Source: an uncultured Lachnospiraceae bacterium
Lineage (GTDB): Bacteria; Bacillota; Clostridia; Lachnospirales; Lachnospiraceae
Assembly: GCA_946405625.1 (NCBI GenBank)
Contig: CAMJHQ010000006.1
Span: 1-64,000 of the forward strand
Direction of reading: 5' to 3'
Length of the DNA: 64,000 nt
A model generated the notes under the pieces. That model did not search any database. It was not told the DNA's origin and saw nothing but the letters and a program-made list of their open reading frames with translations. Shown here in pieces: positions 9,987 to 24,651 of the stretch. The position numbers were made by a program, and so were the translations under genes. Position 1 is the stretch's first letter. Each line of letters begins with the position of its first letter.

Positions 9987-10112
9987 AATAATAAACCCCT
10001 AATAAACAATCATTTAACTTCCGAATTCTTCATCTTTCCGATGCCTCTCCGCCATAAGATAAGCGGCATAAAAGTACTGATATATTATATCACATGAAAT
10101 ATATCATGTCAG

Positions 10113-10182
10113 TTAAAAATCCGGATGCTCTGCTGACATAAAAACCCGGAATTTCTTCTGACATTAAAAATCCGGATGCTCT
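10113..10182. repeat. 19-bp direct repeat at the end of the oxidoreductase gene
   Basis: TTAAAAATCCGGATGCTCT occurs at 10113-10131 and 10164-10182. The second copy contains the last codons (EHPDF) and stop of the oxidoreductase fusion. A weaker third copy (AAAACCCGGAATT) lies between them. It looks like a small tandem duplication of the 3' end of the gene. Confidence 0.7.
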
Positions 10183-11990
10183 CCCGAATATCCGAATTCC
10201 GGCAGACATGAAAGATATGATATATCCTCCTCGGAAATCTTAAATCCGAAAATATCCTTGTTCTCAAGCATGCGCTCCTTCGAAGATGCCTTCGGAATAA
10301 CAGGTATTCCCCTCTGTATCAGATATCTGAGAAGCAGCTGTGCATTTGTCACCTTATACTTATCGGCAAGCACCGACACTCTTTCATCATTCAGAACTCT
10401 TGCTCTTCCAAGCGGACTCCATGCCTGTGGAAGTATTCCTTCACGCCTCAGATATGCAAGAGCATATTCCTGCATATATCCGACATGCAGCTCAAGCTGA
10501 TCCACCATAGGACGTATACGTGCCACATCAAGTAGTGGCTTTATATGATGAGGAAGGAAATTCGAGAGTCCTATCGCACGTATTCTTCCTTCGAGATATA
10601 AATCTTCCATTACCTTCCAGGACTCCGCAACCTTTGAAAACCAGTCCGGATCCTTAGGATCTTCCTTCGGCCAATGAATAAGATACATATCGAGATATGT
10701 GGTCTTAAGCTTTGCACAAGACTCCTCAAAAGATTTAAGTGTCCACTCACTTCCGAGATCTGCAGGCCACACCTTACTGCAGAGGAACAACTCTTCCCTC
10801 GGAATTCCCGATTCGGCTATAGCACAGCCTATCGCATCTTCATTATTATAGAATTTTGCAGTATCTATATATCTATAGCCAGCATCGAGTGCAGCCTTGA
10901 TCGTATCAGTTTCTCCGCCTTCTGTCGCCAAGAAGGATCCATATCCGACGGCCGGTATCACAACGCCGTTATCCAATATAAACTCCTTGCGGCTTTCGGT
11001 ATAAAGTGATGCATCAAGAATCCTGTCAAGAAGACGCATATTCTTAATCGAAAACTCTTCTGTGATCAGCGGCTTTATCTCTCCTCTAACAGCCCTGCTG
11101 AATCTTTCAATTTCCAGTCTGTAGTTTGAATCAGAATTTATCTTCCTCTTACTTTCGATTCTGTTTCCTTCTTCATCCTTTACGGTAACGGTGAATTCAA
11201 GTCCACCTTCTTCATTATATTCCACATCTGAACGGATATATCCCTTCGAACCATGTATAAAGAGCCTGTCATATCTGTCACATGTATCAACTCCGAGCAT
11301 CATCCCCGCATTAAAGGAAGCTCTGACTCCGTTCTTAAACTTCAGAAGAACCGATGCCATATGATCGACTCCTGTCTTATCAAGTTCGGCATCCGCCTTT
11401 ATATATTCTATCTCTGAATCAACCAATGTAAGGATCATCGACGTGCAGTAGCATCCTATATCATAGATACCGCCGCCTCCGAGCTCCTTATGAAGCCTGA
11501 AGTCCTCCGAATAATCCTGTGTAAGGAATGCTGTATCTATATAATCTATCTCACCGATCTCACCGCTGTTTATAACCTCTTTCAAGTCCTCAATATAAGG
11601 ACTGTGAAGATAAGCGAAGGCTTCCGCAAGTATACGGTCATTCTTTTTAGCTGCGGCAAACATTTTCCTCAGCTCTGTTTCATTCATCGCAATAGGCTTC
11701 TCACAGAGTACATGCTTTCCGGCATTCAGAGCTTTTATCACCCATTCAGAATGTATATTGTTCGGAAGAGGAATATAAACCGCTTCAATTTCCGGGTCAG
11801 CAAGAAGTGCATCATATCCTTCATACGCCTTTACGAAACCGAAGCGTTCTTTAAACTCTTCTGTCTTTTTCAAACTTCTTCCGGCTATTGCATATAGCTC
11901 ACACCCTTCTGCCTTTTTCATTCCCGGAATCGTACAACCGGCAGCTATTCCTGCAGTTCCGAGAACTCCTCATTTAACATTATCAAGCAT
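10164..11990 (-). pseudogene. Gfo/Idh/MocA oxidoreductase–aldo/keto reductase fusion, interrupted by UGA at codon 7
   Basis: The frame encodes a Gfo/Idh/MocA dehydrogenase (about residues 1-320 of the uninterrupted frame) fused to a complete aldo/keto reductase (about 325-608). Dehydrogenase signs are GVLGTAGIAAG (cofactor loop), CEKPIAMNETE and GGGGIYDIGCY. In the second half the tetrad is visible as DTAKFYNNED, SKVWP and LIHWP. The natural start is the ATG at 11990, preceded by GGGGAGG at 7 bases. The frame reads MLDNVK and then TGA at 11970-11972, exactly where this family has a conserved Trp (KWGVLGTAG). Starting at the later ATG (11921) would remove the Rossmann motif and has no good ribosome site. 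A TGG to TGA change, a sequencing error or read-through are all possible. Confidence 0.8.
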
Positions 11991-12110
11991 ATCAATACCT
12001 CCCCTATACTTAATATCTTTGCAGAATATCCGCTGGGAAATCTATCATCCGAGGCAGATCTGCTCTTAATAAATCCAAGTTTCAGTATACCAAATATTTA
12101 ACGCATTTAA

Positions 12111-12212
12111 CATAAAAATAAGCCAATACGTGAAGCACAAAATTAGCCGATACGATGAAGCATAAAAGTATGCCAATACAATGAAGCATTAAAATAAGCC
12201 GATACGATGAAG
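12111..12212. repeat. Four tandem 25-26-bp repeats
   Basis: Units start at 12111, 12136, 12161 and 12187 and follow the pattern CATAAAA-TAAGCCGATACGATGAAG with a few substitutions. They lie just beyond the terminator of the nitrogenase-like operon and upstream of the oxidoreductase pseudogene. No credible gene overlaps them. The rest of the 11991-12243 gap shows nothing else recognisable. Confidence 0.8.
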
Positions 12213-12243
12213 CATTTAATGCCCCACCATATCGACTCTTCGG

Positions 12244-12276
12244 AAAAATTTGTTGTATGGAAGGATTATACAACAA
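12244..12276 (-). terminator. Terminator of the nitrogenase-like operon, overlapping the nifK-like stop
   Basis: A 9-bp perfect stem (12250-12258 with 12268-12276, TTGTTGTAT/ATACAACAA, 9-base loop) is followed on the minus strand by AATTTTT. The upstream arm includes the last codons and stop of the nifK-like gene. Confidence 0.8.
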
Positions 12277-13630
12277 CGGAATCATTATATGTGCTTGAAT
12301 TAATCTGATTACCTGAGAACAGATTATGATATATATCCTCTATCAGGTTAAGTCCTCCGCGATAACCAACATGTGTATTCTGGATGATAAGATCCTGTCC
12401 TATCGGGATACTTATATACTTAAACAGATTTCCTGTCTCCTTAGCTATATCTCTCTCCCAGTCACTTCCGAGTATGAGAGCTCTGTTTTCATACTTCACT
12501 CTGTTCTTAAGGTCGATAAGGTTCTGCTCATTATCTTTATTGATAACGAATATATCCTTATACTCCGAAAGCTCCTTCTCTATAAAGCTTCTCACGATCT
12601 CTTCCTTCTCAGGAGTCGGATCATCTGTTATATAGACTCTCTCCGGGATAAATCCGAGTTCCTGTTCAAGATACTTAGTATACGAGAGAGCATAGAGACT
12701 GTCTGCTGCAGTATAGAGCTTATAAGGAAGATTTGTCTGATACTCTGCAAGGAAGTCAACTATCCCTTCGAAATACTGATAATATCTCTTCTCCTCTCTT
12801 GATATTACTCTCTGAACATCAAGTCCGTTAAGACCTGCAAACTTTCCGACTTTCTTCAGAAATCTGCTTGTCTCGACTGCTCCGATAGGAAGTACCGGAT
12901 ACTGAAGATATGGTGTTCCGTATTTTTCTTTAAGAAGTTCTACGATATCAAGACCTACCCATGGTGAAATAAGAAGGTTGAACTCTGCATCGGGAATCCT
13001 GTTCCACTCCTTTATGCCTTCTGACGCAACTCCGAAAAGAACATTCACCTCAAGTCCAATATCCTCAAGGAGTCTCTTTATCTCTTCGAGGTCTCCTCTC
13101 CAGTACGGATCTTGAAATGGAACATCAGCAAATACATTTACAAGCCTCTTCTTAACAACCGGGTTGCGGTCGCCGATATACTGCTGAATGATCGACTTGA
13201 TAACTGCTTCATGTCCGTAATAATTCGATCCTCTGAATCCCGGTGTATCTACACCTGTAATAGGGAAGCCCTGATCTCTGAATTCCTTGGCGATAGCTAC
13301 AACATCATCGCCGATTATTCCTGCAGTACATCCTGAAAGAATAACGAAGAGATCTCCGTTCAGCACTTTAAATGTACTCTCTACAAGCTGTCTGAGCTTC
13401 TTCTCTCCACCGAATACGACTTCTGTCTCACTTGCATTTGTACAGGAAATCTGATTTCCTCCCGCATAGCCCTCACCCTGCTGTCCTGCACCTGTTGCAA
13501 GGAATCCGAAAGCTTTTGAAGAACATCCCGGACCTGCATGAACTATTGGGATTCCTCCCGGAATTGCAAGTACTGTCTGCTGCGCACCGAGTGCACATGT
13601 ATATCTTGGTTGTGATATTGTATTAGCCAT
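12266..13630 (-). CDS. Nitrogenase-like component 1, beta (NifK-like) subunit
   Basis: The 454-residue protein belongs to the NifD/NifK oxidoreductase component 1 superfamily and would form the second subunit of a NifDK-type complex. Likely P-cluster ligands are Cys12 (TCALGAQQ), Cys36 (HAGPGC) and Cys101 (SGCTAGIIGDD), spaced as in NifK. Other family patterns are GVDTPGFRGSNYYG and IGAVETSRFLKKVG. It is shorter than true NifK because it lacks the N-terminal extension. It is last in the operon; its ATG overlaps the nifD-like stop by one base (TAATG). As a nitrogenase-like protein of unassigned group, its substrate is unknown. Confidence 0.9.
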   Translation of the reverse strand: MANTISQPRYTCALGAQQTVLAIPGGIPIVHAGPGCSSKAFGFLATGAGQQGEGYAGGNQISCTNASETEVVFGGEKKLRQLVESTFKVLNGDLFVILSGCTAGIIGDDVVAIAKEFRDQGFPITGVDTPGFRGSNYYGHEAVIKSIIQQYIGDRNPVVKKRLVNVFADVPFQDPYWRGDLEEIKRLLEDIGLEVNVLFGVASEGIKEWNRIPDAEFNLLISPWVGLDIVELLKEKYGTPYLQYPVLPIGAVETSRFLKKVGKFAGLNGLDVQRVISREEKRYYQYFEGIVDFLAEYQTNLPYKLYTAADSLYALSYTKYLEQELGFIPERVYITDDPTPEKEEIVRSFIEKELSEYKDIFVINKDNEQNLIDLKNRVKYENRALILGSDWERDIAKETGNLFKYISIPIGQDLIIQNTHVGYRGGLNLIEDIYHNLFSGNQINSSTYNDSVVV

Positions 13631-15114
13631 TATGCATTTACCTCTTTTTTCTTACCGTCATTTACGAAGTAGAACGGATCTGTATCCTGGTTCATCCACC
13701 AGTCCGTATATGGGAACTTCGTATGTCCCGCGATATTATCTACCAGCTTATGTGTTCTGAATGAACGAAGTATTCTCTCACCGAACTCTATCTGTCCGTC
13801 ATAACCTACACCGAGATTCGAATCCGCATCAAATATTGTCGGAACTCCTGATTTATAACCGAGTGCGGCAAGTGCCGGATGTCTTACTATAAGCAGCTCA
13901 GGCTTAAGATTCTTCAGGAATTTTATAACCTGATATGGCTGTTTGTTACATACATTGTAATTCTCGACATCTCCCACATTTTCAACAAGGAATTTAAGTG
14001 TATTGATCTCTTCTGAATCAGATACTCCGTCATGATGATAAGTGGTCGTTCCCACAACATCCATCTCGAAATCTCTTGCCATGCTGATTACGTTATGAGC
14101 ATAAGCGTCACCGGCAAATACATATACTCTCTTACCCTTAAGCTGTGCCTTCAGGCTCTCGAGCTTTTCGCCGATCCTTTCATGCTCTGACTCTATAGCC
14201 GCTTCTACCTGATCTTCTCTGCCGGTAAGCTTTGCAACCTCGCGGAGCCATTTATCTGTAGCTCTGATTCCGAACGGAGCAGCAGCCTTAACCTGAGGTA
14301 CACCGTAAAGGCTCTCAAGTCCTTCACCGATATATGAAGCGAGTGTCTCACAGATAGTAGCCGATGCAGCAGCCTCTGAAATGTGTGAGAGCTCCTCTGT
14401 TGTTGTTACTGACGGAAGGTAATGAGGTCTGAGACCTATCACTCCGAGAAGTCTTGTAAATCTGTCAGTTCCGGCAAAGTTGAAAATGTTTATGACATCC
14501 TCATCTTTCTTTTCAGGCGGCTTAACTACCGCGCGGAGAATTGCATTAAATCCTACATCCCATCCGGTTGACCAGATCTTTGACTTAAAGCCTTCGCATG
14601 CGATCGATACAACAGGTACTCCGACCTCGTCCTGCATCTCTGATGCAATACCCGGAATATCATCTCCTATGATTCCGGAAGCACATGATGATGTTATGAA
14701 GATAACCTTCGGGTTATATCTCTCTTTAGCCTGTCTGATAGCTGTTCTCAGCTTCTCGCCGGCTCCGTATATTGTATCCTTCTCCTGAATATTGGTGCAT
14801 ATAGCATGATGATTGAATTTACCCTTTTTTCTGTTATCTGCAACACCCTGACATTCCTTATAATTTCCTGATATAGTTGCAAAACATCCGATAGGTGCAT
14901 GAGATATAACTGCTGCATCTCTTATGCCGTATACCAGCATCTTGCCGCAGCCTTCCTGACAGTCACCGCACTGTCCATAACAGAATTTACCGATCTTGAG
15001 TTTTCCCTGGCTTCCCTGCTCTGCCAGCTCACTTGCTTTACCCTGAAATGTAAGTACTGTCTTTAGTCTCTTCTCTCTTATCTCTACATTACCGGATTTA
15101 AAATTAGTGCTCAT
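13630..15114 (-). CDS. Nitrogenase-like component 1, alpha (NifD-like) subunit
   Basis: The 494-residue protein resembles NifD, the subunit that holds the active-site cluster. Candidate P-cluster ligands are one of Cys45/49/52/56 (CYGQCGDCQEGC), Cys77 (SHAPIGC) and Cys144 (SSCASGIIGDD). Cys255 (ATICETLASYIG) matches the cysteine that anchors FeMo-cofactor (Cys275 in Azotobacter NifD). Aligning CEGF with the same motif of NifD puts Trp181 and Trp185 at the positions of Gln191 and His195, and no histidine is evident at the His442 position (SGVPTIFDADSNLGVGYDG). The start at 15114 (ATG) has GAGGA 9 bases upstream; a GTG three codons earlier overlaps that site. These changes argue against N2 reduction. 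Similar divergence is known in nitrogenase-like enzymes such as methylthio-alkane reductase. Confidence 0.9.
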   Translation of the reverse strand: MSTNFKSGNVEIREKRLKTVLTFQGKASELAEQGSQGKLKIGKFCYGQCGDCQEGCGKMLVYGIRDAAVISHAPIGCFATISGNYKECQGVADNRKKGKFNHHAICTNIQEKDTIYGAGEKLRTAIRQAKERYNPKVIFITSSCASGIIGDDIPGIASEMQDEVGVPVVSIACEGFKSKIWSTGWDVGFNAILRAVVKPPEKKDEDVINIFNFAGTDRFTRLLGVIGLRPHYLPSVTTTEELSHISEAAASATICETLASYIGEGLESLYGVPQVKAAAPFGIRATDKWLREVAKLTGREDQVEAAIESEHERIGEKLESLKAQLKGKRVYVFAGDAYAHNVISMARDFEMDVVGTTTYHHDGVSDSEEINTLKFLVENVGDVENYNVCNKQPYQVIKFLKNLKPELLIVRHPALAALGYKSGVPTIFDADSNLGVGYDGQIEFGERILRSFRTHKLVDNIAGHTKFPYTDWWMNQDTDPFYFVNDGKKKEVNA

Positions 15115-15670
15115 CTTTATCACTCCTCTTGATATTCGTATTTCTCCAGAAATCTATACTTTTGATATTTCCGTCTTCAAAGAAGGTCAGGCTTTCAACC
15201 TTCAGATTAAATGTCTTCCCTGAAAAACCGATCTCTGCCACCGGAGAATTCTCGGATTCCTCTTCCTCACTCCAGTAAGCGCTGATCTGTCCGTATAAAG
15301 GAAATATCTTCTTGATCAGTCCGTTTTCATGAAATGTAATAAGCTCCGCCTGAACCTTGCCTACTACCGTTTCAACCTCGATCGCGTCCTGAAGATAAAG
15401 ACTTCGCACGCGTCCCGAGCGGTAATACTCAATACTGTTTCTGAATTTTTTTCTTACATCCGCAGCTTCATATGCGGGAACTATCTCTGTCCCGTCCTTT
15501 AGTCTTATCGATATTCTTCTTCCGACTATTCCTCCGAGCAGCGTTCCGTCACCGTAATAGTCACAACTGCTCAGATCATCTGCAGATATACTGTTCTCAA
15601 TTAGCCTTGCGGTTATTATATTTTTATTCAGCTTTAATCCTTTTAGCTTAAATCCTTTTACATCAACCAT
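15104..15670 (-). CDS. Conserved-context protein of the nitrogenase-like operon, unknown function
   Basis: This 188-residue protein lies between the nifB-like and nifD-like genes and overlaps both, so it is probably produced with the complex. It is not recognised. It has repeated short motifs of the form F-E-N/D-G-x-I-K (ITFHENGLIKKIFPLYG and LTFFEDGNIKSIDFW), which resemble MORN/YwqK-type beta repeats. It has no cysteine cluster, signal peptide or membrane segment. The ATG at 15670 has GGAGA 9 bases upstream and overlaps the nifB-like stop; an earlier ATG at 15688 has no clear site. It may be an assembly or accessory factor, but this rests on position alone. Confidence 0.75.
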   Translation of the reverse strand: MVDVKGFKLKGLKLNKNIITARLIENSISADDLSSCDYYGDGTLLGGIVGRRISIRLKDGTEIVPAYEAADVRKKFRNSIEYYRSGRVRSLYLQDAIEVETVVGKVQAELITFHENGLIKKIFPLYGQISAYWSEEEESENSPVAEIGFSGKTFNLKVESLTFFEDGNIKSIDFWRNTNIKRSDKDEH

Positions 15671-16928
15671 GACTGAATGTCTCCGCAACCTCCGATTTAT
15701 ATATCTCGGAATGGATATCCTTTCCCGTACCCGGTATTCCTACTGAATCCGCACGGCAATGCATACAGTGTCTGAATACCTTGATATATCTTCCCGCTTC
15801 TGTTCTGACTCTCTCGAGATCATCACAGTTAGGTGCGGGAACATCTGCCATTTCGTTCTGTGGTATAAGCGGGATAATGTTAAGCAGCTGGGCTCCCAGC
15901 TCTGCAACGGTTCTTGCGACCTCCGGGATATGCTCATCATTTATTCCCGGGCACATTACACTGTTGACCTTAACAACTATTCCTCTGTCTGCAGCTTTTC
16001 GTATTCCTTCAAGCTGATTCTTTATAAGAAGTTCAGCACCTTCAACTCCTTCATGCTTCACTCCGTTTTCATCTATTACAAAATCATTTATTTTCGCTTC
16101 AATTTCCGGATCTACCGCATTGACCGTAACGGTGATCGTTTCAAGTCCGAGCTCCGTTATCCTGTCTATCTGCTTCGGGAGACAGAATCCGTTTGTCGAC
16201 AGACAGCAGACCATATCCGGAAAATTCTCTTTTACTTTTTCAAAGGTATCAAGTGCAAACGGTGTTGCAAGTGTATCTCCCGGTCCCGCAATTCCCGCAA
16301 CCGTGATCTCAGGGCAAAGCTCCTTTGCCTTTTTAATAGCATCTATAGCTTCGTCCGGTTTTATTATCAGAGATGTAAGTCCCGGTTTTATCTCGGTCTT
16401 ATCCAGTCTTCTGGAACAGAATTTACACTGGATATTGCAGGATGGACTGACAGGAAGATGTATTCTTCCTCTTCTCACATTTGCTTCGCCGCTCATACAT
16501 GGATGCTTTGTCTGCAGATTACAGTATGAGCTGTATGCCTTATCATTCGACGAATGTCTGGTTCTGTTGATAAGGAGCTTTACCTGATTTATATCCTCCT
16601 CCTCATTCAGAAGCCTGTTTAAAAGCTCCGGGATATTTTCCTCAGCTTCCACAGCCTGGATCATATTCTTCTCTAGAACACTGTATGCTCCCGGTCCGAT
16701 TGCTTCCGCATAAACGACATGAGAATCATTTATCGTTTCAACAACCCTGTTCATTCGTTCATCATGATGCTCATGATTGAGGCATGCCTTATCAACCTCT
16801 CTGGTTGCAACAAATGTGATCTTATGCACTTCAGTATCAACCTCATAGATATCAAATCTTGAGGTTGCACCAAAATGTCTGTCTACCTTTGTCCCACTAC
16901 TTGTGGCAAAAGCCGCTCTTATGAACAT
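15663..16928 (-). CDS. NifB-like radical SAM protein with N-terminal NifX-like domain
   Basis: NifB builds the carbide-centred Fe8S9 precursor of nitrogenase cofactors. The 421-residue protein carries HPCMSGEANVRRGRIHLPVS, the radical SAM motif CNIQCKFC (Cys164, 168, 171), GPGDTLATPFALDTFEKVKE and the late CMHCRADSVGIPG, all NifB signatures. The first 110 residues (IRAAFATSSGTKVDRHFG onward) are a NifX/NafY-like cofactor-binding domain. In the usual NifB fusion this domain is C-terminal, so the order here is reversed. The gene is 19 bases downstream of the nifH-like gene. Its presence without nifE or nifN in the window suggests that the enzyme uses a NifB-co-type cluster. Confidence 0.92.
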   Translation of the reverse strand: MFIRAAFATSSGTKVDRHFGATSRFDIYEVDTEVHKITFVATREVDKACLNHEHHDERMNRVVETINDSHVVYAEAIGPGAYSVLEKNMIQAVEAEENIPELLNRLLNEEEDINQVKLLINRTRHSSNDKAYSSYCNLQTKHPCMSGEANVRRGRIHLPVSPSCNIQCKFCSRRLDKTEIKPGLTSLIIKPDEAIDAIKKAKELCPEITVAGIAGPGDTLATPFALDTFEKVKENFPDMVCCLSTNGFCLPKQIDRITELGLETITVTVNAVDPEIEAKINDFVIDENGVKHEGVEGAELLIKNQLEGIRKAADRGIVVKVNSVMCPGINDEHIPEVARTVAELGAQLLNIIPLIPQNEMADVPAPNCDDLERVRTEAGRYIKVFRHCMHCRADSVGIPGTGKDIHSEIYKSEVAETFSHG

Positions 16929-16947
16929 ATTTCATTACCTGCCTTAC

Positions 16948-17953
<1,006 letters not shown>

Positions 17954-19222
17954 TCAGCTTACCTTCTTATCAGCATTTATATTGCTTCCGTATATGCTGA
18001 GTGCCTGATCCAGATCATCTATAAGATCTCGCGCATCTTCAATTCCGATTGAGATTCTGAGAAGCTTATCGGTAACTCCTGTCTCAAGTCTCTGCTCTTC
18101 CGGTATCGGAAGCTGTATTCCCGATGAAGGATATGTTATCAGGCTCTGCGTTCCTCCCAGACTTCCCGCAACATTTATCACCTTCAGTCTTTCAAGTATC
18201 TCCGGTATTTTCTCCGGCTCTTTAACATAGAATGATACGAGTGCTCCGAAACCCGTCGTCTGTTTCTTAGACAGTTCGTAATCCGGATGCTCCGGATCTC
18301 CTGCATATATAACTTTTTCAACTGCCGGATTCTGCTTCAGGAACTTTACTACTTCGAATGCATTTTCCTGTTCCCTGTCAAGTCTTACTGACAATGTCTG
18401 AAGACCTCTCAGTGCAAGCCAGCTGTCATCTGCAGAAAGAACTCCGCCTTCGCTCATTGCGAAGAAGTAGAAGAATTCTCTGAGTGCTTTCTCCTTTACC
18501 ACAACTGCACCCGCAAGAACATCATTATGTCCGGCTATATATTTCGTAGCACTGTGAACTACTATGTCTGCTCCATGTGTAAGCGGCTTCTGGAAATACG
18601 GAGAAAGCAGTGTATTATCAACTATCAGATATGCTCTCTTACTTTCGAGTACCGCATTTATATCCGGATGAGCATCCGCTGACTCGCTGACCTGTTTACC
18701 TGTTTCAATACCTCTTTCAGTATTGATCTCCTTAACGAGTCTGCTGAGTGCTTCAATATCCGTTACATGCATTGCAGGATTTGAAGGTGTTTCTATCAGG
18801 AAACCCTTTGTATTCGGCTTTATGCTTTTCTTTACATCCTCTAGATTCCAGGTATTTACGAACTGAAACTCTATCCCGTATCTCGCATACAGATTTGTGA
18901 GAAGTCTGTAGCTTCCACCGTAAAGGTCGCTTGTTACGATAACATGATCTCCCGGACCGAAAAGCTTCAGCACAAGTGCTATAGCTGACATTCCGCTGGT
19001 TGTCGCAACCGCATCCTCACCATGCTCGAGATAAGCAAGCTCCTTCTCAAAAGCCCTTCTCGTCGGTGTATCACACCTTGAATAATAATACTTATCCGGA
19101 TCATAGCTTATCTCCGGATGATGATAAGTTGCCGATCTGTATATCGGTACACTCAGGCTTCCGGTAACGGGATCCGGACCCGAACCTCTCGCCAGTCTTG
19201 TATTCTCTCTCATCTTACTCAT
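17954..19222 (-). CDS. Cys/Met metabolism PLP-dependent enzyme (cystathionine gamma-synthase/lyase type)
   Basis: The 422-residue protein is a fold-type I PLP enzyme of the Cys/Met metabolism family, which makes or breaks C-S bonds at the beta or gamma carbon of amino acids. The PLP lysine is Lys227 in VVHSATKYIAGHND. Other family patterns are SGMSAIALVLKLFGPGDHV, ETPSNPAMHVTDIEAL, VDNTLLSPYFQKPL and a late GVTDKLLRISIGIED. An insertion of about 27 residues (about 168-195) is unusual. Its start overlaps the upstream lyase gene (ATGA). The operon context with an amino-acid importer and a nitrogenase-like reductase points to sulfur-compound turnover, but lyase, synthase and sulfhydrylase activities cannot be told apart. 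Confidence 0.9.
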   Translation of the reverse strand: MSKMRENTRLARGSGPDPVTGSLSVPIYRSATYHHPEISYDPDKYYYSRCDTPTRRAFEKELAYLEHGEDAVATTSGMSAIALVLKLFGPGDHVIVTSDLYGGSYRLLTNLYARYGIEFQFVNTWNLEDVKKSIKPNTKGFLIETPSNPAMHVTDIEALSRLVKEINTERGIETGKQVSESADAHPDINAVLESKRAYLIVDNTLLSPYFQKPLTHGADIVVHSATKYIAGHNDVLAGAVVVKEKALREFFYFFAMSEGGVLSADDSWLALRGLQTLSVRLDREQENAFEVVKFLKQNPAVEKVIYAGDPEHPDYELSKKQTTGFGALVSFYVKEPEKIPEILERLKVINVAGSLGGTQSLITYPSSGIQLPIPEEQRLETGVTDKLLRISIGIEDARDLIDDLDQALSIYGSNINADKKVS

Positions 19223-20850
19223 CTCTCCTTTGATGCTTCATATTTCAGTTTGCCGTCCATATATTCCGTCTGCTGGAACAGATGACATTTATGTGCTGCC
19301 GGAGAACAGTTGATTCCGCATGTATATCCGCAGAGCATTTCCTGAGGTGTTTTCTTATAATGCTCTTCCATAGCATCTATAACTTCATGATATGGAATTA
19401 TCGGATCAATTCCGGCTCTGGCGAGATCTGCGTAAAGCGGAGCTGTTACAGCAGCTCTGACTGTTCTTGTGATACAAGGGAATTCCTTGCCTCCCGGTAT
19501 TACATCACATACCAGACCGAGGTTTGCCTGAAGTGCCATCGACGCAGCATTTTCAACCTGATCAGGTGTTGCTCCCGTGAGCTGTGCTACTGCGGCAGAT
19601 GCCATGGCATTACATACTCCGGATTCTCCGACACATCCTCTTTCTCCGCTCGGATTTGAACGTGTATATGCTATAGCTCCGAAGGCTGCAGCTACTATCA
19701 GAGCTTCGATCACCTTCTCATGGCTGTAGCCGCCCTTTTCTCTTACTGCATCAAGTGCACTGAAGAGATATCCTCCGCCTGTTCCCATTGGTCCGGGAAC
19801 TATCTTTACACCGGGAACCTTTGCATTTGTTGAAAGTGCATTTTCTATGATTCTCTGTGTCAGAGGATCTGTAAGCGGTCCCTTCTCCTTCTTATATCTG
19901 TCCCAATGCTTTCCGTATACCGGAAGCACCGGTGTATCCTTTACATTGTTGACTCCGAGTTCCTCAAGTGCATGAACCTGATGATAGAGGATATCGGCTA
20001 TCTTCTCGAATCTTGCGATGATCTGTTCCTTTGTCCATCCGGAGAAATCCTTTTCATACTCGATTGCCGCATCTACAAAGGATATTCCTCTTTCCTCGGC
20101 TATCTTCTTCCATTCCGTAACCGTATCAAACAGCTGCGGCTTTCTCTTCAGAGTTGTTACTACCGGAAGCAGTGCCGGATAAACTCTGTAGCTGTATCCT
20201 TCTTCCCTAAGCAGTTTTATCAATTCATCATCTATAGGGCTGTCTGCTTCTGCAAAGGCACCTGTCTTATCCTTGGAATCCTTAACTGTTTTTACATCAA
20301 CGAATGTATCGCCGAGCTTACTCTTCAGGAGCTCATTTACATCCGCACTGATGCTTCCCTCTTCTTTCCAGACCAGAAGAGCATATGTATCTGCCTGATA
20401 ATTGACTTCAAAATCATTGAGTCTGTACGCTCTCACCATGCCGCCGCCGATTGAGCTTACAACTGCTGTTCCCGTGTCACCTTCTCTACCTTTCAGAACT
20501 ACATACACTGAAAACGGCGGTATGTTATCTGCTTCATTTCCTTCTTTAAATTCATATGAAAGTCCGATTTTCCTTGCTTCTTCATGTGATGTAAAAAGCC
20601 GCTCATCCTCAGTATCATAATCAAGTATTCCTCCGAGATAAGCTCTGTCCTCCATAAATGTACCGAGACTGTCTATCGAATGTGATCCAGGAGTAAAAAT
20701 GAATGTCACCTCTTCAGGTTCAGAAAGTACACTATATCTCGCTACTCTTGCAGCTCTTGATGTTCCTGCGAAGCCTCCGCTTGAACCCGGCTGCATTATC
20801 GGACCGAATACATCATTGAAAAAGTCCGGATAAAATATTTTTTCTGCCAT
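19219..20850 (-). CDS. L-serine dehydratase-like Fe-S lyase (single chain)
   Basis: The 543-residue protein has the layout of single-chain Fe-S L-serine dehydratases: a beta-type domain (about 1-165) and an alpha-type domain (about 330-540). Candidate cluster ligands include Cys406 (GERGCVGESGVC), Cys448 and Cys459 (CDVIPGGKEFPC), with more cysteines at 507, 511, 515 and 522. The beta-domain motif that normally reads SSSHT is replaced here by PGSSGGFAGTSRAAR, and the central region is longer than usual. A different substrate from serine is therefore likely, for example a modified cysteine or other beta-substituted amino acid. That is inferred from the neighbouring importer and PLP enzyme. It overlaps the next gene by four bases. 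Confidence 0.8.
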   Translation of the reverse strand: MAEKIFYPDFFNDVFGPIMQPGSSGGFAGTSRAARVARYSVLSEPEEVTFIFTPGSHSIDSLGTFMEDRAYLGGILDYDTEDERLFTSHEEARKIGLSYEFKEGNEADNIPPFSVYVVLKGREGDTGTAVVSSIGGGMVRAYRLNDFEVNYQADTYALLVWKEEGSISADVNELLKSKLGDTFVDVKTVKDSKDKTGAFAEADSPIDDELIKLLREEGYSYRVYPALLPVVTTLKRKPQLFDTVTEWKKIAEERGISFVDAAIEYEKDFSGWTKEQIIARFEKIADILYHQVHALEELGVNNVKDTPVLPVYGKHWDRYKKEKGPLTDPLTQRIIENALSTNAKVPGVKIVPGPMGTGGGYLFSALDAVREKGGYSHEKVIEALIVAAAFGAIAYTRSNPSGERGCVGESGVCNAMASAAVAQLTGATPDQVENAASMALQANLGLVCDVIPGGKEFPCITRTVRAAVTAPLYADLARAGIDPIIPYHEVIDAMEEHYKKTPQEMLCGYTCGINCSPAAHKCHLFQQTEYMDGKLKYEASKER

Positions 20851-20882
20851 AATAATTCCTCTTTCAAATACTTATTTCTGTA

Positions 20883-21635
20883 CTAAATAATGTAATCATC
20901 GTATTCCAGATATCGTCTGAGGAATTGTCTTGTTCTATCCTCTTTAGGTCTGGTAAATATCACATCCGGGGTTCCCGTCTCTACAACCACACCCTGATCC
21001 ATATAGATAACCTTGGTTGCAACATCCTTTGCAAACTTTATCTCGTGTGTAACAATGATCATGGTTGTTCCACTCTCTGCGAGTGATTTGATAGTTGAAA
21101 GAACCTCGCCAACAAGCTCTGGATCCAGTGCGGAAGTCGGTTCATCAAAGAGTATTACATCCGGGTTATAAACCATTGCTCTGGCTATTCCCACTCTCTG
21201 CTGCTGTCCGCCTGATAATTCGCTTGCATAATAATCATATCTGTCCTGAAGGCCTACCTTATCAAGTGCTTCCTTGGCTTTTGCTTCGGCCTCTTTCTTC
21301 GGAACATGTCTTGCAACTGTAAGTCCGAGCATTACATTTTCCAAAGCAGTTTTGTTATTAAATAAGTTATAATTCTGAAAAACAAATCCGAGGCTTTCTC
21401 TCAGTTCCTTCTTTTCCTGCTTGCTCGGCTTCTTCAGATTAACTGTTTTATCTCCGATCGATACCTCTCCTGAATCCGCCTTCTCAAACATTTCAATACA
21501 TCTGAGAAGCGTTGTCTTACCCGAACCGCTTGATCCGAGTATTACTACTACATCACCCTGATCTATATCAAAGCTTATCCCCTTAAGTACTTCATTATCT
21601 CCAAAGGATTTTTTTATGTTTTTAACTTGCAGCAT
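20883..21635 (-). CDS. Amino-acid ABC transporter ATP-binding protein (PAAT family)
   Basis: The 250-residue ATPase powers an amino-acid importer. Walker A is GSSGSGKTT (34-42), the signature is LSGGQQQR, Walker B is [13 protein letters not shown], and the switch is [12 protein letters not shown]. The sequence most resembles ATPases of cystine and polar amino-acid importers. The start overlaps the end of the upstream permease gene by 14 bases. It is followed 32 bases later by the serine-dehydratase-like gene, which links import to catabolism. Confidence 0.94.
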
Positions 21636-22344
21636 TTCTTATCCTACCTCCGCGAAATACGTTAAGCTTTTTCTCAAACGGTTTAGCTATCAGCTCAACT
21701 GTTACGATGAGAATGATATAAACGAGTGCAACCGTTACATAAGCCTCCAGATATCTCAGTTCCATTCCTCCGAGAAGCTGTGCCTTACCGGTTATTTCAA
21801 CAACCGTCATAAGGAAAGCAAGTGACGTTACCTTTATCAGATCCACAAATCCATTTACTATTACCGGAAATGCAGCTGAGAAAGCCTGTGGAAATACAAC
21901 ATGGAAGAATGTCTCAACATTGTTCAGACCAACTGCCTTCGCCGCTTCACGCTGTCCCTTATTTACTGTAACCAGTCCCGATCTTACAGCTTCCGAAATT
22001 GTAACTGTCGTCGATATCGAAAGTGCTATATAAGCGAATATCTTTGCGTTTATGCTGTATACCTTGAAATCACTTCCGATACTCTTCATAAAATCTGTGA
22101 GTACCATCGGAAGAATGTTATAGACTACATATATCTGCAGAAGAACCGGTGTTCCTCTGATTATTGAGATATAAACCCTGATAACTTTTGATATTCCCTT
22201 AACATTATGATGATTTAAAAGAGCCATCAGAACTCCCATTGGGAAAGAGATCAGAAAGGTTATAAAAGTCAGCTGTAATGTGACCGGGATGTATTTAATT
22301 ACTTCAGGAAATGCTTCTCGTACGAAGCCCCAATCTATTTTCAT
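21622..22344 (-). CDS. Amino-acid ABC transporter permease
   Basis: The 240-residue integral membrane protein has the PAAT permease loop [37 protein letters not shown], which contacts the ATPase. About five membrane segments are visible. It is the second of two different permeases, an arrangement also found in the Bacillus TcyJKLMN importer for cystine and S-substituted cysteines. It overlaps the first permease gene by 41 bases and the ATPase gene by 14. Confidence 0.92.
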
Positions 22345-23128
22345 CTTCCTCTTTCCTTTCTTTCTCTTTAATTTCTTTTACTTCTTTTACTTCTTTAACT
22401 GATTTAACAATTTTTTCCTTCTTACTTTCCTTTTCGGATATACGTCTCTTATACTGCATCTTCTTTTCAAGCGATGCGAAAAGCTTCTGGATCAGAACGC
22501 TTATCGGCCAGTAAATTACCGTCAGTGCGAGATACGCTTCAAGCAGATACAGATTTCTCTCACCTGATGCAGTAAAGAGAACATGTCCGAGAACATCATG
22601 TAAGCCGATAGTGTATGCCAGTGAACCTTCTTTAAACAGATATATGATCGTGTTGCCTATGTTCGGAAGTGCAACCTTAAATACCTGCGGCAGGATAATG
22701 ATCCTGAAAGCCTGAAAATCACTGAGTCCGACTGCCACTGCCGCTTCCTTCTGAGAGTTTCCGACAACTTTTATAGCGCTTCTTATTATCTCTGATGATG
22801 AGCTTCCTACGAAGATTGAAAAGGTCAGGCACACAAATGCGAGTGGCTCAACTTTTCCTATCTTAAAACCGCTGTTACGAAGTACAGTCGGGAGTCCGTA
22901 ATATGTCAGAAACAGAAGTACCAGCGGCGGTGTACATCTTGTAAGTGTTATATACAGATGTCCCAAAACTCTTGGCAGCTTATGCTTCGACATATTGAGT
23001 TTCGCTATTACTATTCCGATCAGGAAACCAAAGAACAGCGAAGCCGCAACATATGCGACGGTAATCCTCAGATACGGTAACCCTGCAAGTAAATATTCTA
23101 TGATTTTCTTAAAATGGATTTCTCTCAT
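22304..23128 (-). CDS. Amino-acid ABC transporter permease with charged C-terminal tail
   Basis: The 274-residue permease has the PAAT ATPase-contact loop EIIRSAIKVVGNSQKEAAVAVGLSDFQAFRIIILPQ and about five membrane segments ending near residue 220. A tail of about 45 residues follows, made largely of Lys, Glu and Val (KEVKEVKEIKEKE), which is not normal for the family and may be a cytosolic coiled coil or simple-sequence expansion. It overlaps the second permease gene by 41 bases. Confidence 0.9.
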   Translation of the reverse strand: MREIHFKKIIEYLLAGLPYLRITVAYVAASLFFGFLIGIVIAKLNMSKHKLPRVLGHLYITLTRCTPPLVLLFLTYYGLPTVLRNSGFKIGKVEPLAFVCLTFSIFVGSSSSEIIRSAIKVVGNSQKEAAVAVGLSDFQAFRIIILPQVFKVALPNIGNTIIYLFKEGSLAYTIGLHDVLGHVLFTASGERNLYLLEAYLALTVIYWPISVLIQKLFASLEKKMQYKRRISEKESKKEKIVKSVKEVKEVKEIKEKERKEEDENRLGLRTRSIS

Positions 23129-23166
23129 AACTCCCTCATGTAATCTAAAACTCTCTGTTGATCAGC

Positions 23167-24147
23167 TTATTCACCGACTTCCGGATTGAACTGATCGTAT
23201 CCGTAATATTTAAGTGAAAGCTCAAGAAGCTTTCCGTTATCGTTTAATTCCTTAAGTGCTCCGTCAACTGCTGCGGTAAGGTCATCATTTCCTTTCTCGA
23301 TGATCGCATAGGTTGGTACTGAGAATGAGTAGAAGAACTTAAGCTTATCTGCATATTCATGATATGGACCATCCTCTGCTTCAACTACCGATGTCCATAC
23401 CGTATACGGAAGCGGTGACCACTGATATCTTCCTTCAGCTATGAACTGATACTGATCTGACTGAAATGCATCACTGTTTGTATATTCAAACTTCAGTGGA
23501 TTATCAGCATGCTCTTCGTTATACTTGTCATACTGGAATGTCATTCCGTCTCCTACCATGAGTGGAATTCCTTCTGCTCCGGCAGTTGCAATCTTTTCAA
23601 GTGTGTCATATTTTTCAGCATTCTCAGCAGCTACATAATAACCACTCGGTGAAGCTCCAAGAGGATTTGACGGAATGTTGTAATTCTCGGCTCTCTTGTC
23701 TGTATAGAACGCATTTGAAAGAACCAGCTGATATACTCCCGTTTCAAGAGCTGTATAATTGGCATCCTGAGCGCCTTCATTAAATTCGAACTCATACTGT
23801 GGAAGAAGTTCATCAACTGCCTGGATCACTTCAACCTCATAACCTACAAGCTTGTCGTTCTCATCGTGATATGACCATGGCTTGTAATTCTGTAATGTTC
23901 CTACCTGAATTACTGTTACCTGTCCGTCTGCCGGCTGCTCTGCTTTTTCTTCGGCAGGTGCCTCAGAAGGTGCTTCGGAAGGTGCTTCAGAAGCTGCCGT
24001 TTCGGAAGACTGTGTATTTGCTGAAGCCTGTGTATTCTTATCAGCTTCGCCTTCCTTTGAAGTACCGCATCCTGTAAGTGCTGATATACCAAGTGCTGTC
24101 GATAAAACAATTGCTGCTGTCTTCTTAATATTCTTATTGATTCTCAT
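23167..24147 (-). CDS. Amino-acid ABC transporter substrate-binding lipoprotein
   Basis: The 326-residue extracellular lipoprotein delivers substrate to the importer. A signal peptide ends in the lipobox ALTGC (Cys27). A flexible Ser/Ala/Glu/Pro linker (about 30-75, with repeated SEAP units) precedes a family 3 solute-binding domain (VIQVGTLQNYKPWSYHDENDKLVGYEVEVI onward). The pattern GYEVEVIQAV with NYTALETGVYQLVLS fits amino-acid binders close to cystine-type proteins. The exact ligand is not predictable. It is the first transporter gene, 67 bases after the NifX-like gene. Confidence 0.93.
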   Translation of the reverse strand: MRINKNIKKTAAIVLSTALGISALTGCGTSKEGEADKNTQASANTQSSETAASEAPSEAPSEAPAEEKAEQPADGQVTVIQVGTLQNYKPWSYHDENDKLVGYEVEVIQAVDELLPQYEFEFNEGAQDANYTALETGVYQLVLSNAFYTDKRAENYNIPSNPLGASPSGYYVAAENAEKYDTLEKIATAGAEGIPLMVGDGMTFQYDKYNEEHADNPLKFEYTNSDAFQSDQYQFIAEGRYQWSPLPYTVWTSVVEAEDGPYHEYADKLKFFYSFSVPTYAIIEKGNDDLTAAVDGALKELNDNGKLLELSLKYYGYDQFNPEVGE

Positions 24148-24214
24148 AATTTAATTCCTCCGTAGATTTCCTTAATTACATTTACTATTTTCTTAATTTC
24201 TTTTGTCTTAATTT

Positions 24215-24574
24215 CTATTTTGATACGTAAGCTGCAATCTTTATGAGCAGCTCATCTATCTCTCCTGTCTGTTCGAGAACATTTATTCCGTTGGACTTAA
24301 GTACTCTGAATGGAAAGTTTCCTATATGCCTCACTATCAGGTAACTGCAATCTGTCAGTTCCTTTGCCAGGTTTTCCAGGTACGTCTTATCATGTCCGTG
24401 ACATCCGCTTCCCAAGTCTTCCTTCGTTATGCTGTCTGATAGGATCTCACCCTTTCGTGTAATCTTACCTTCATCTATTTCAGCAAGCACAAATCTGTTT
24501 GCCTTTCCGAAATTCACATCACTTGTGATTCCGTCTTCAGTTGCAACAGCAATCCTTATCCTGCCTGCGCTCAC
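24215..24574 (-). CDS. NifX/NafY-like cofactor-binding protein
   Basis: This 119-residue protein is a stand-alone dinitrogenase iron-molybdenum cofactor domain (IRIAVATEDGITSDVNFGKANRFVLAEID), a fold that binds or carries nitrogenase metal-cluster precursors. It also has GSGCHGHDKTYLENLAKEL, whose Cys and two His could bind metal. The GTG at 24574 is the start because GGAGG lies 8 bases upstream. It opens the operon, ahead of the amino-acid importer, which ties the importer to the nitrogenase-like enzyme. Confidence 0.88.
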   Translation of the reverse strand: MSAGRIRIAVATEDGITSDVNFGKANRFVLAEIDEGKITRKGEILSDSITKEDLGSGCHGHDKTYLENLAKELTDCSYLIVRHIGNFPFRVLKSNGINVLEQTGEIDELLIKIAAYVSK

Positions 24575-24620
24575 TCACATCACCTCCGAAATATTTATTT
24601 CACAGCTATGAACTTTGACC

Positions 24621-24651
24621 ATTATATGCAGATGTGATTCAAAAGTGTTAA
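24621..24651 (-). promoter_or_regulatory. Candidate promoter of the nitrogenase-like operon
   Basis: On the minus strand TTAACA (24646-24651) and TATAAT (24621-24626) are 19 bases apart, a long spacing. TATTAACA occurs twice upstream, once overlapping the -35, and may be an operator direct repeat. Start of transcription would be about 40 bases before the NifX-like GTG. Confidence 0.4.

Follow-up and report, generated by a model that had tools for sequence, protein, structure and literature searches.

A nitrogenase-like gene cluster with importer and lyase genes in an uncultured Lachnospiraceae bacterium points to a possible route for taking sulfur from an imported organic compound

The DNA analysed here, hereafter the window, is a stretch of 64,000 nt from an uncultured Lachnospiraceae bacterium (positions 1 to 64,000 of contig CAMJHQ010000006.1, here C6, in assembly GCA_946405625.1), whose 3.3 Mb genome is spread over 70 contigs and is 97.8% complete. 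It carries a run of 12 closely packed genes on the minus strand, from 24574 down to 12266, beginning with a NifX-like and ending with a K-like gene, in which genes for nitrogenase-like (Nfl) proteins are combined with those of an importer, an iron-sulfur (Fe-S) lyase-like protein and a pyridoxal phosphate (PLP) enzyme. With the start codons of the longest open reading frames (ORFs), neighboring genes overlap at six of 11 junctions (by 1 to 41 bases), and the widest gap, between the genes for the PLP enzyme and the NifH-like protein, is 145 bases. A preliminary description of this DNA had reported 12 consecutive, tightly spaced genes closed by a terminator, and all 12 ORFs were found in place, with a terminator-like hairpin (12196–12238, minus strand; 20-pair stem and T-rich tail) directly after the stop codon of the K gene. 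Across 13.4 kb there are 16 terminator-like sites against 8.1 expected from shuffled sequences, the stem at 12238–12196 being the longest by far, while a promoter scan gave 29 sites against 29.3 in shuffles, which is no excess, and no promoter is claimed. The run forms one apparent operon, and its genes are probably co-transcribed. Eleven of the proteins (all except permease B) were scanned against Pfam or NCBIfam, and families were found for ten, the exception being the product of 15104–15688 (U194). The nearest relative among the searched genomes, 93% identical in D (loci L035 and L055; record title Eubacterium sp. MAG (metagenome-assembled genome), water deer rumen), has the same gene set in the same order, except that the gene for the binding protein is split over two reading frames, by either an assembly error or a real loss.

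The two catalytic subunits, NflD (497 aa, 13630–15123) and NflK (454 aa, 12266–13630, with three P-cluster Cys motifs), both have the methylthio-alkane reductase (MAR) of Rhodospirillum rubrum as their best match among all PDB sequences, at 392.7 and 393 bits, respectively, the next matches reaching 136.8 (NifD) and 86.9 bits. The reductase component NflH (286 aa, 16948–17808) scores 453 bits with the nifH profile (cut-off 394) and has the Cys motifs GCAGRG and VVCGGF. NflB (421 aa, 15663–16928) is a NifB-type radical S-adenosylmethionine (SAM) enzyme with the motif CNIQCKFC, which scores 321 bits with the nifB profile, under the cut-off of 344, and has an N-terminal Nitro_FeMo-Co domain (PF02579, residues 12–107) ahead of the radical SAM domain (PF04055, 159–340), so that the two domains stand in the opposite order to that of the NifB profile. 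In a Butyrivibrio locus (L097), the NifX-type and radical SAM domains of NflB are two separate genes. The first gene of the run (24215–24574) specifies a NifX/Nitro_FeMo-Co domain protein of 119 aa (PF02579, 47 bits), a probable cluster carrier.

In the published account of MAR, P-cluster ligands are Cys66, 91 and 158 of MarD and Cys32, 56 and 121 of MarK, the cofactor is held by Cys270 and His429, Arg428 is a possible hallmark, and Cys73, Gln74, His194, Trp195, Phe199 and His375 lie around the cluster (PMC12552129). The reference MarD and MarK sequences show the expected letters at all of these positions. Together, window D and K keep all six P-cluster cysteines and the equivalents of Cys270 and Arg428-His429 (in D, C55, C80, C147, C258, R414 and H415, along with W184), and H and B retain their cluster motifs. 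Because D and K match MarDK best and keep both the P-cluster cysteines and the cluster ligands, NflDK is assigned as a MAR-type enzyme rather than an N2-fixing one, in agreement with the preliminary description. The homologues of NifH, NifB and NifX and the complete [Fe8S9C] ligand set would also suit an unconventional, Nfa-like nitrogenase that fixes N2, but the probability of this is close to negligible, given that NflD scores 137 bits with NifD against 393 with MarD, that a search of the 97.8% complete genome with window H and D found no NifDK or NifEN, and that, according to PMC12552129, N2 is not reduced by the R. rubrum enzyme, which has the same cluster.

In the same genome search, the matches outside the locus were one ParA-like protein and short Nfl proteins on another contig, C4. 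There, at about 80–89 kb (L053), lies a second nitrogenase-like locus that is not MAR-type, with two NifH-like genes (about 50 and 46% identical to window H) and three short D/K-like proteins of 401–426 aa (NifE profile, 56–78 bits). It adjoins genes that by eye resemble HypF and HypE, and the labelled ORFs in the 20 kb fetched include no NifB-like gene.

A scan of named genomes returned 519 relatives, of which the best 80, ranked by closeness to window D, were used, so that the second of the two clades described here (clade B) is under-sampled. In a tree of 96 D sequences, from which one short row (L079, 24% identity) was left out, the window falls in clade A (54 rows, support 97), and clade B (23 rows, support 89) holds Clostridium, Heliophilum, Pelosinus, Acetobacterium and others; these labels are used throughout. 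Clade A enzymes occur in rumen and termite-gut Lachnospiraceae and spirochaetes, among others. The separation recurs in a D+K tree under a mixture model (45 rows from the 89 D+K pairs), where a branch with support 100 sets clade A, without R. rubrum, apart from the other rows, and in the K tree, where one change separates A, including the window, from B if the R. rubrum row is not counted. The D and K trees are quick searches with long-branch warnings, including for the R. rubrum rows, and the placement of R. rubrum is unsure: in the D tree, MarD branches basally to A (84, weak), in the K tree, MarK groups with clade B (support 100), and in the D+K tree it takes no settled position. The pocket differs as well. 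Two of the six residues around the MAR cluster are kept in the window (Trp195 and His375), positions 73, 74, 194 and 199 being Met, Leu, Ile and Trp, and a Cys at residue 73 is found in none of the 53 other clade A proteins but in 20 of 23 in clade B, like R. rubrum. On this evidence, the window enzyme is placed outside MAR proper, in a separate clade with an altered pocket. NifX-like genes are present in 17 of 23 clade A lineages. Some genomes also have more than one kind of MAR-type or Nfl D gene side by side, as at L107 (two MAR-like D in tandem, 10001–13000) and L108 (three D).

Upstream of the nfl genes, and following the NifX-like gene, are those of an ABC importer: a substrate-binding lipoprotein (SBP_bac_3, PF00497; 326 aa, 23167–24147), permease A (274 aa, 22304–23128; BPD_transp_1, 75 bits), permease B (240 aa, 21622–22344; an ORF with homology to permeases beside nfl genes in relatives) and an ATPase of the polar amino acid (Tcy/Gln) type, here PAAT (250 aa, 20883–21635; best NCBIfam model TcyN, 318 bits, cut-off 406). 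Permease A ends, by eye, in a low-complexity tail rich in Lys and Glu. With one binding protein, two permeases and a PAAT-type ATPase, the composition is that of Tcy/GshT importers, as previously proposed for this DNA, and the nearest PDB sequences of the binding protein are 4eq9 and 4c0r (GshT and related, the name being taken from PDB titles). Its AlphaFold model has a mean confidence score (pLDDT) of 92.6, and Foldseek ranks 4gvo, 4c0r, 2o1m and 4eq9 at places 1, 2, 3 and 5, so that cystine and glutathione binders are the top-ranked folds.

In the LAO protein, R77 and D161 presumably hold the carboxylate and the ammonium of the ligand, respectively, and mutants of both are among the titles of the Foldseek matches. 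The carboxylate Arg is present as Arg152 in the window and in all 38 binding proteins compared from clade A loci, while the ammonium Asp, by alignment, is Pro247 in the window and Asp in just 3 of the 38 (fragments under 250 aa, such as that of L055, being excluded from both counts). With the Arg kept but the Asp lost, something other than a plain amino acid may be the ligand, which makes the modified sulfur amino acid first suggested as the import doubtful. Although GshT is the nearest solved sequence, a glutathione importer is not claimed, given the low identity and the loss of the Asp.

Between the importer and the nfl genes lie two that could act on a sulfur compound. The first (19219–20850) specifies a 543 aa protein in which the beta and alpha parts of an Fe-S L-serine dehydratase (SDH) are fused, its scores with sda_alpha (131 bits) and sda_beta (96 bits) falling short of the respective cut-offs. 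The catalytic His61 of the Legionella enzyme (motif GKGHGTD; role from PMC12647591) is Phe65 in the window and Phe or Met in all 14 fused proteins aligned, one nfl-free member (L179) having a His one place earlier. The SSSHT motif is lost in 11 of 11 nfl-linked fused proteins and is SSSHT or SSSHL in three nfl-free members, and the Fe-S Cys motifs GC.GE and CD..GG..PC are kept in 14/14. With the catalytic His absent, SSSHT lost and the Fe-S motifs remaining, it is very unlikely, judging by these residues, that the fused protein acts on L-serine by the known mechanism, and the earlier label "serine-dehydratase-like" does not hold in its strict sense. The family is thereby marked as a very unlikely serine dehydratase even though SDH models are its best matches. 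In 392 order-level genomes (E 1e-40), 45 of the 46 other genomes' matches were 27–32% identical and resembled ordinary serine dehydratase pairs, with one genome (G426) closer; a regular-expression search located the canonical SDH motif in 26 of 28 loci, a count that is partly true by construction. A search of 398 phylum-level genomes added two fused members at about 40%. The three nfl-free members (L179, L180 and L181) adjoin a PAAT or sulfonate-type importer, two of the three also having cysteine synthase, and the 18–20 kb fetched around each showed no nfl gene; they mark a separate sulfur-linked gene set around the fused SDH-like family.

The second gene (17954–19222) codes for a Cys/Met PLP enzyme of 422 aa (PF01053, 434 bits) with the Lys motif SATKYIAGHND. 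It falls below the cut-off of each of the 25 NCBIfam models shown (the best being PRK07671, 417 bits, cut-off 594), and its profiles place it no more closely than in the cystathionine gamma-lyase/synthase group.

Gene neighborhoods were compared at loci with at least 9 kb of flank in view (39 of 53 in clade A and 17 of 23 in clade B). A PAAT importer was called from an ATPase at least 50% identical plus a binding-protein match within 10 kb, and SsuA/TauC, MetI/MetQ, cysteine synthase and PatB from any BLAST match at E 1e-6, weak ones being doubtful (e.g., L118 for SsuA/TauC). PAAT importers were present at 25/39 clade A loci against 1/17 in clade B, cysteine synthase at 25/39 against 6/17, the PatB C-S lyase at 19/39 against 1/17, and cystathionine-type PLP enzymes at 22/39 against 6/17. 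The reverse was seen for O-acetylhomoserine sulfhydrylase-type PLP enzymes (0/39 against 10/17) and MetI+MetQ-type importers (1/39 against 8/17). SsuA+TauC-type importers occur at 5/39 against 1/17, the latter weak, and the SDH-like lyase at 7/39 (10/53 ignoring flank) against 0/17. With D merged at 85% identity, a PAAT importer remains in 15 of 23 clade A lineages against 1 of 13 in clade B, and cysteine synthase (57% or more) in 13/23 against 3/13. Representative neighbors checked with profiles scored 446 bits for cysteine synthase (cut-off 351), 471 for PatB (340) and 227 for MetI (212), and the O-acetylhomoserine sulfhydrylase 483, slightly below its cut-off of 495.

The association that the preliminary description drew from one genome is thus seen in relatives, where the importer, the PLP enzyme and, in some lineages, the Fe-S lyase lie beside nfl genes. 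In Lachnospiraceae and spirochaetes, the combination of importer, PLP enzyme and nfl genes is found repeatedly, with the genes rearranged; for example, Butyrivibrio L097 has the whole window set together with cysteine synthase and PatB in a different order, and a planctomycete contig (L101) has importer and lyase, with no PLP gene in view. The window ATPase is 55–68% identical to the PAAT ATPases of clade A loci (95% in L055) and at most 52% to paralogues in its own genome, and because it is closer to the former, the importer appears to travel with the nfl genes. It could be argued from the unconserved gene order that importer and lyases are chance neighbors of the nfl genes. Counting that of the window, the genome has three such import ATPases (48% identity or more), from which 1–2% co-occurrence within 20 kb is expected by chance, and the 15/23 lineages with rearranged co-occurrence make this very improbable. 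Because other genera and phyla also have these families together, in differing orders, the gene set is not regarded as a chance grouping.

Sulfur genes in the neighborhoods, together with the MAR-type ligands, bring up the question of whether the operon encodes a strict methylthio-alkane reductase. Such a system would import S-methylcysteine, methionine or 3-methylthiopropionate and free methanethiol, which the PLP enzyme would join to activated homoserine, giving methionine. The conserved cluster ligands, the Trp195 and His375 equivalents and the Cys/Met PLP enzyme in the operon are all in keeping with it, and clade B resembles it, with its sulfhydrylase-type PLP enzymes, its MetI+MetQ importers and SAM riboswitches at 3/7 loci scanned. 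For the window it is possible but doubtful. The pocket pair Cys73-Gln74 is Met-Leu, Cys73 and the sulfhydrylase type are both missing from the clade A proteins and loci counted above, and neither an Rfam scan of the whole window (no match) nor scans of seven other clade A loci (one tRNA only) detected a riboswitch. The seven clade B loci scanned gave four SAM-riboswitch matches at three loci plus one glycine riboswitch, those in L105 and L129 lying just upstream of importer or sulfhydrylase genes and that of L120 about 9 kb from D on the other strand; the scans covered 14 of 80 D loci. The preliminary description had methanethiol going directly into methionine synthesis, but clade A neighbors point instead to sulfide, cysteine and homocysteine.

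Another reading is that of a sulfonate reductase resembling IsrBHDK from Rhodobacter capsulatus. Isr likewise combines an Nfl enzyme with a radical SAM protein and an importer (PMC11423573), and the SsuA+TauC-type importers of five clade A loci would suit this reading. It is improbable here: according to PMC11423573, IsrD has a single P-cluster Cys out of three and lacks both FeMoco ligands, and IsrB bears no close relation to NifB, but the window has all ligands, a NifB-type B and an importer of amino-acid type. The altered pocket of the binding protein would also admit a compound reduced at a bond other than carbon-sulfur (another C-X bond, selenium included), with the sulfur genes being neighbors for other reasons. 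This is unlikely: clade A loci repeatedly carry cysteine synthase, PatB and cystathionine-type enzymes, an importer is also found next to the lyase's nfl-free relatives, with cysteine synthase in two of the three, and PMC10418091 groups MarHDK-like genes with its non-selenium clusters.

The preferred reading, to which we assign a probability of about one half, is that the operon specifies an organosulfur-scavenging pathway, in which an organosulfur acid is imported and reductively split, and the sulfur passes into cysteine or homocysteine. The Tcy/GshT-like importer would take up a small sulfur-containing carboxylate, such as a thioether acid. NflB, as a NifB-type enzyme, and NifX would make and carry the [Fe8S9C] cluster, and NflH would pass electrons, with ATP, via the P-cluster to the cluster of NflDK, which would cleave a carbon-sulfur bond reductively, in the manner of methylthio-alkane reductase. 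The Fe-S lyase and the PLP enzyme would then release or hand on the sulfur, as sulfide, into cysteine or homocysteine. In the first proposal the steps ran from import through lyase to nitrogenase-like enzyme; the order given here, like the substrate, is tentative. A wider proposal is put forward tentatively, and with less confidence, that enzymes with a nitrogenase cofactor, forming a separate clade, convert an imported organosulfur acid to sulfide by reductive desulfurization, aided in some lineages by a new kind of [4Fe-4S] lyase that lacks the serine-dehydratase base.

Several observations weigh against this scavenging pathway. Many other amino-acid binders rank closely behind the cystine and glutathione binders in Foldseek (1755 matches at E 0.001), and the loss of the Asp depends on an alignment in which identity to GshT is about 26%. 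Clades A and B represent a single evolutionary split, so that their linked traits are non-independent, and recurrence inside clade A is the stronger evidence. Importer class varies within clade A (the SsuA+TauC type as above, and others with one part only), so a substrate common to the clade is unlikely. Cysteine synthase and PatB are absent from the window operon, so that the naming of sulfide draws on relatives; cysteine synthases occur elsewhere in the genome, and the PatB profile gave no match above cut-off in it.

Two further ORFs stand apart from this argument. U194 (15104–15688, minus strand), between the genes for NflB and NflD, is a repeat-like beta protein with no Pfam or NCBIfam match, and its AlphaFold model, of modest confidence (pLDDT 72), has no PDB match at E 0.001. 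Homologues are found at 10/80 D loci and in 10 other of 397 family genomes; of three such surroundings inspected, one is beside nfl, one beside PatB and a PLP enzyme, and one beside neither, and the link of U194 to the system is weak. Beyond the terminator, at 10164–11921, is an ORF of 585 aa that by eye joins a Gfo/Idh-type oxidoreductase to an aldo/keto reductase.

The related gene sets of rumen and termite-gut bacteria point to an undescribed route that takes sulfur from an imported organic compound. If the proposal is right, there would be an [Fe8S9C] enzyme with a product feeding cysteine rather than methionine, and an unrecognised gut source of sulfide and small reduced carbon compounds, with a bearing on organic-sulfur turnover, sulfide and perhaps hydrocarbon release in rumen and termite gut. 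PMC12552129 describes MAR as the only nitrogenase-like enzyme with large nitrogenase cofactors, and a sister clade with the same ligands and a different pocket, importers and downstream genes would widen the known chemistry of the nitrogenase cofactor. Kineothrix alysoides, Eubacterium xylanophilum and Butyrivibrio proteoclasticus P6B7 are named isolates in which the substrate might be found.

The preliminary description knew of no pathway with this gene set, and open-access full text agrees: papers on MAR, Isr, a heliobacterial genome and methyltransferase clusters (a preprint) were found and, in the passages covered, gave no account of the gene set or clade, the first MAR paper lying outside the coverage. 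That paper is reportedly North et al. 2020 (Science), and a prior mention of such neighborhoods there is possible. The methyltransferase preprint notes nearby MarHDK-like genes and methionine transporters (PMC10418091).

Among the known systems, the lyase is nearest to the Fe-S L-serine dehydratase of Legionella (LpLSD, 4rqo) and the L-cysteine desulfidase CyuA (PMC12647591), with which it shares the SDH_alpha family match and the Fe-S Cys motifs, but in the fused family the two parts form a single chain, His61 is replaced by Phe or Met, and SSSHT is lost in nfl-linked members. The Tcy/GshT cystine-glutathione importers have the same parts (one binding protein, two permeases and one ATPase) and provide the nearest solved binders by sequence and fold; the window differs in its Pro at the ammonium Asp site and an ATPase under the TcyN cut-off. 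IsrBHDK (PMC11423573) likewise combines a nitrogenase-like enzyme, a radical SAM protein and an importer for organic sulfur, but the importer is of the sulfonate type, IsrD is without two P-cluster Cys and both cofactor ligands, and IsrB is not NifB-like. The closest counterpart is MarBHDK of R. rubrum (PDB 9fmg and 9d9u; PMC12552129), which provides the best matches for D and K (393 bits each) and shares the six P-cluster Cys, Cys270, Arg428-His429, Trp195, His375, a NifB-type B and an H with two Cys. In contrast, the window enzyme belongs to a separate clade, has Met-Leu for Cys73-Gln74, Ile for His194 and Trp for Phe199, and is encoded in a run that adds the importer, Fe-S lyase, U194 and NifX, its relatives having links with cysteine synthase and PatB instead of O-acetylhomoserine sulfhydrylase.

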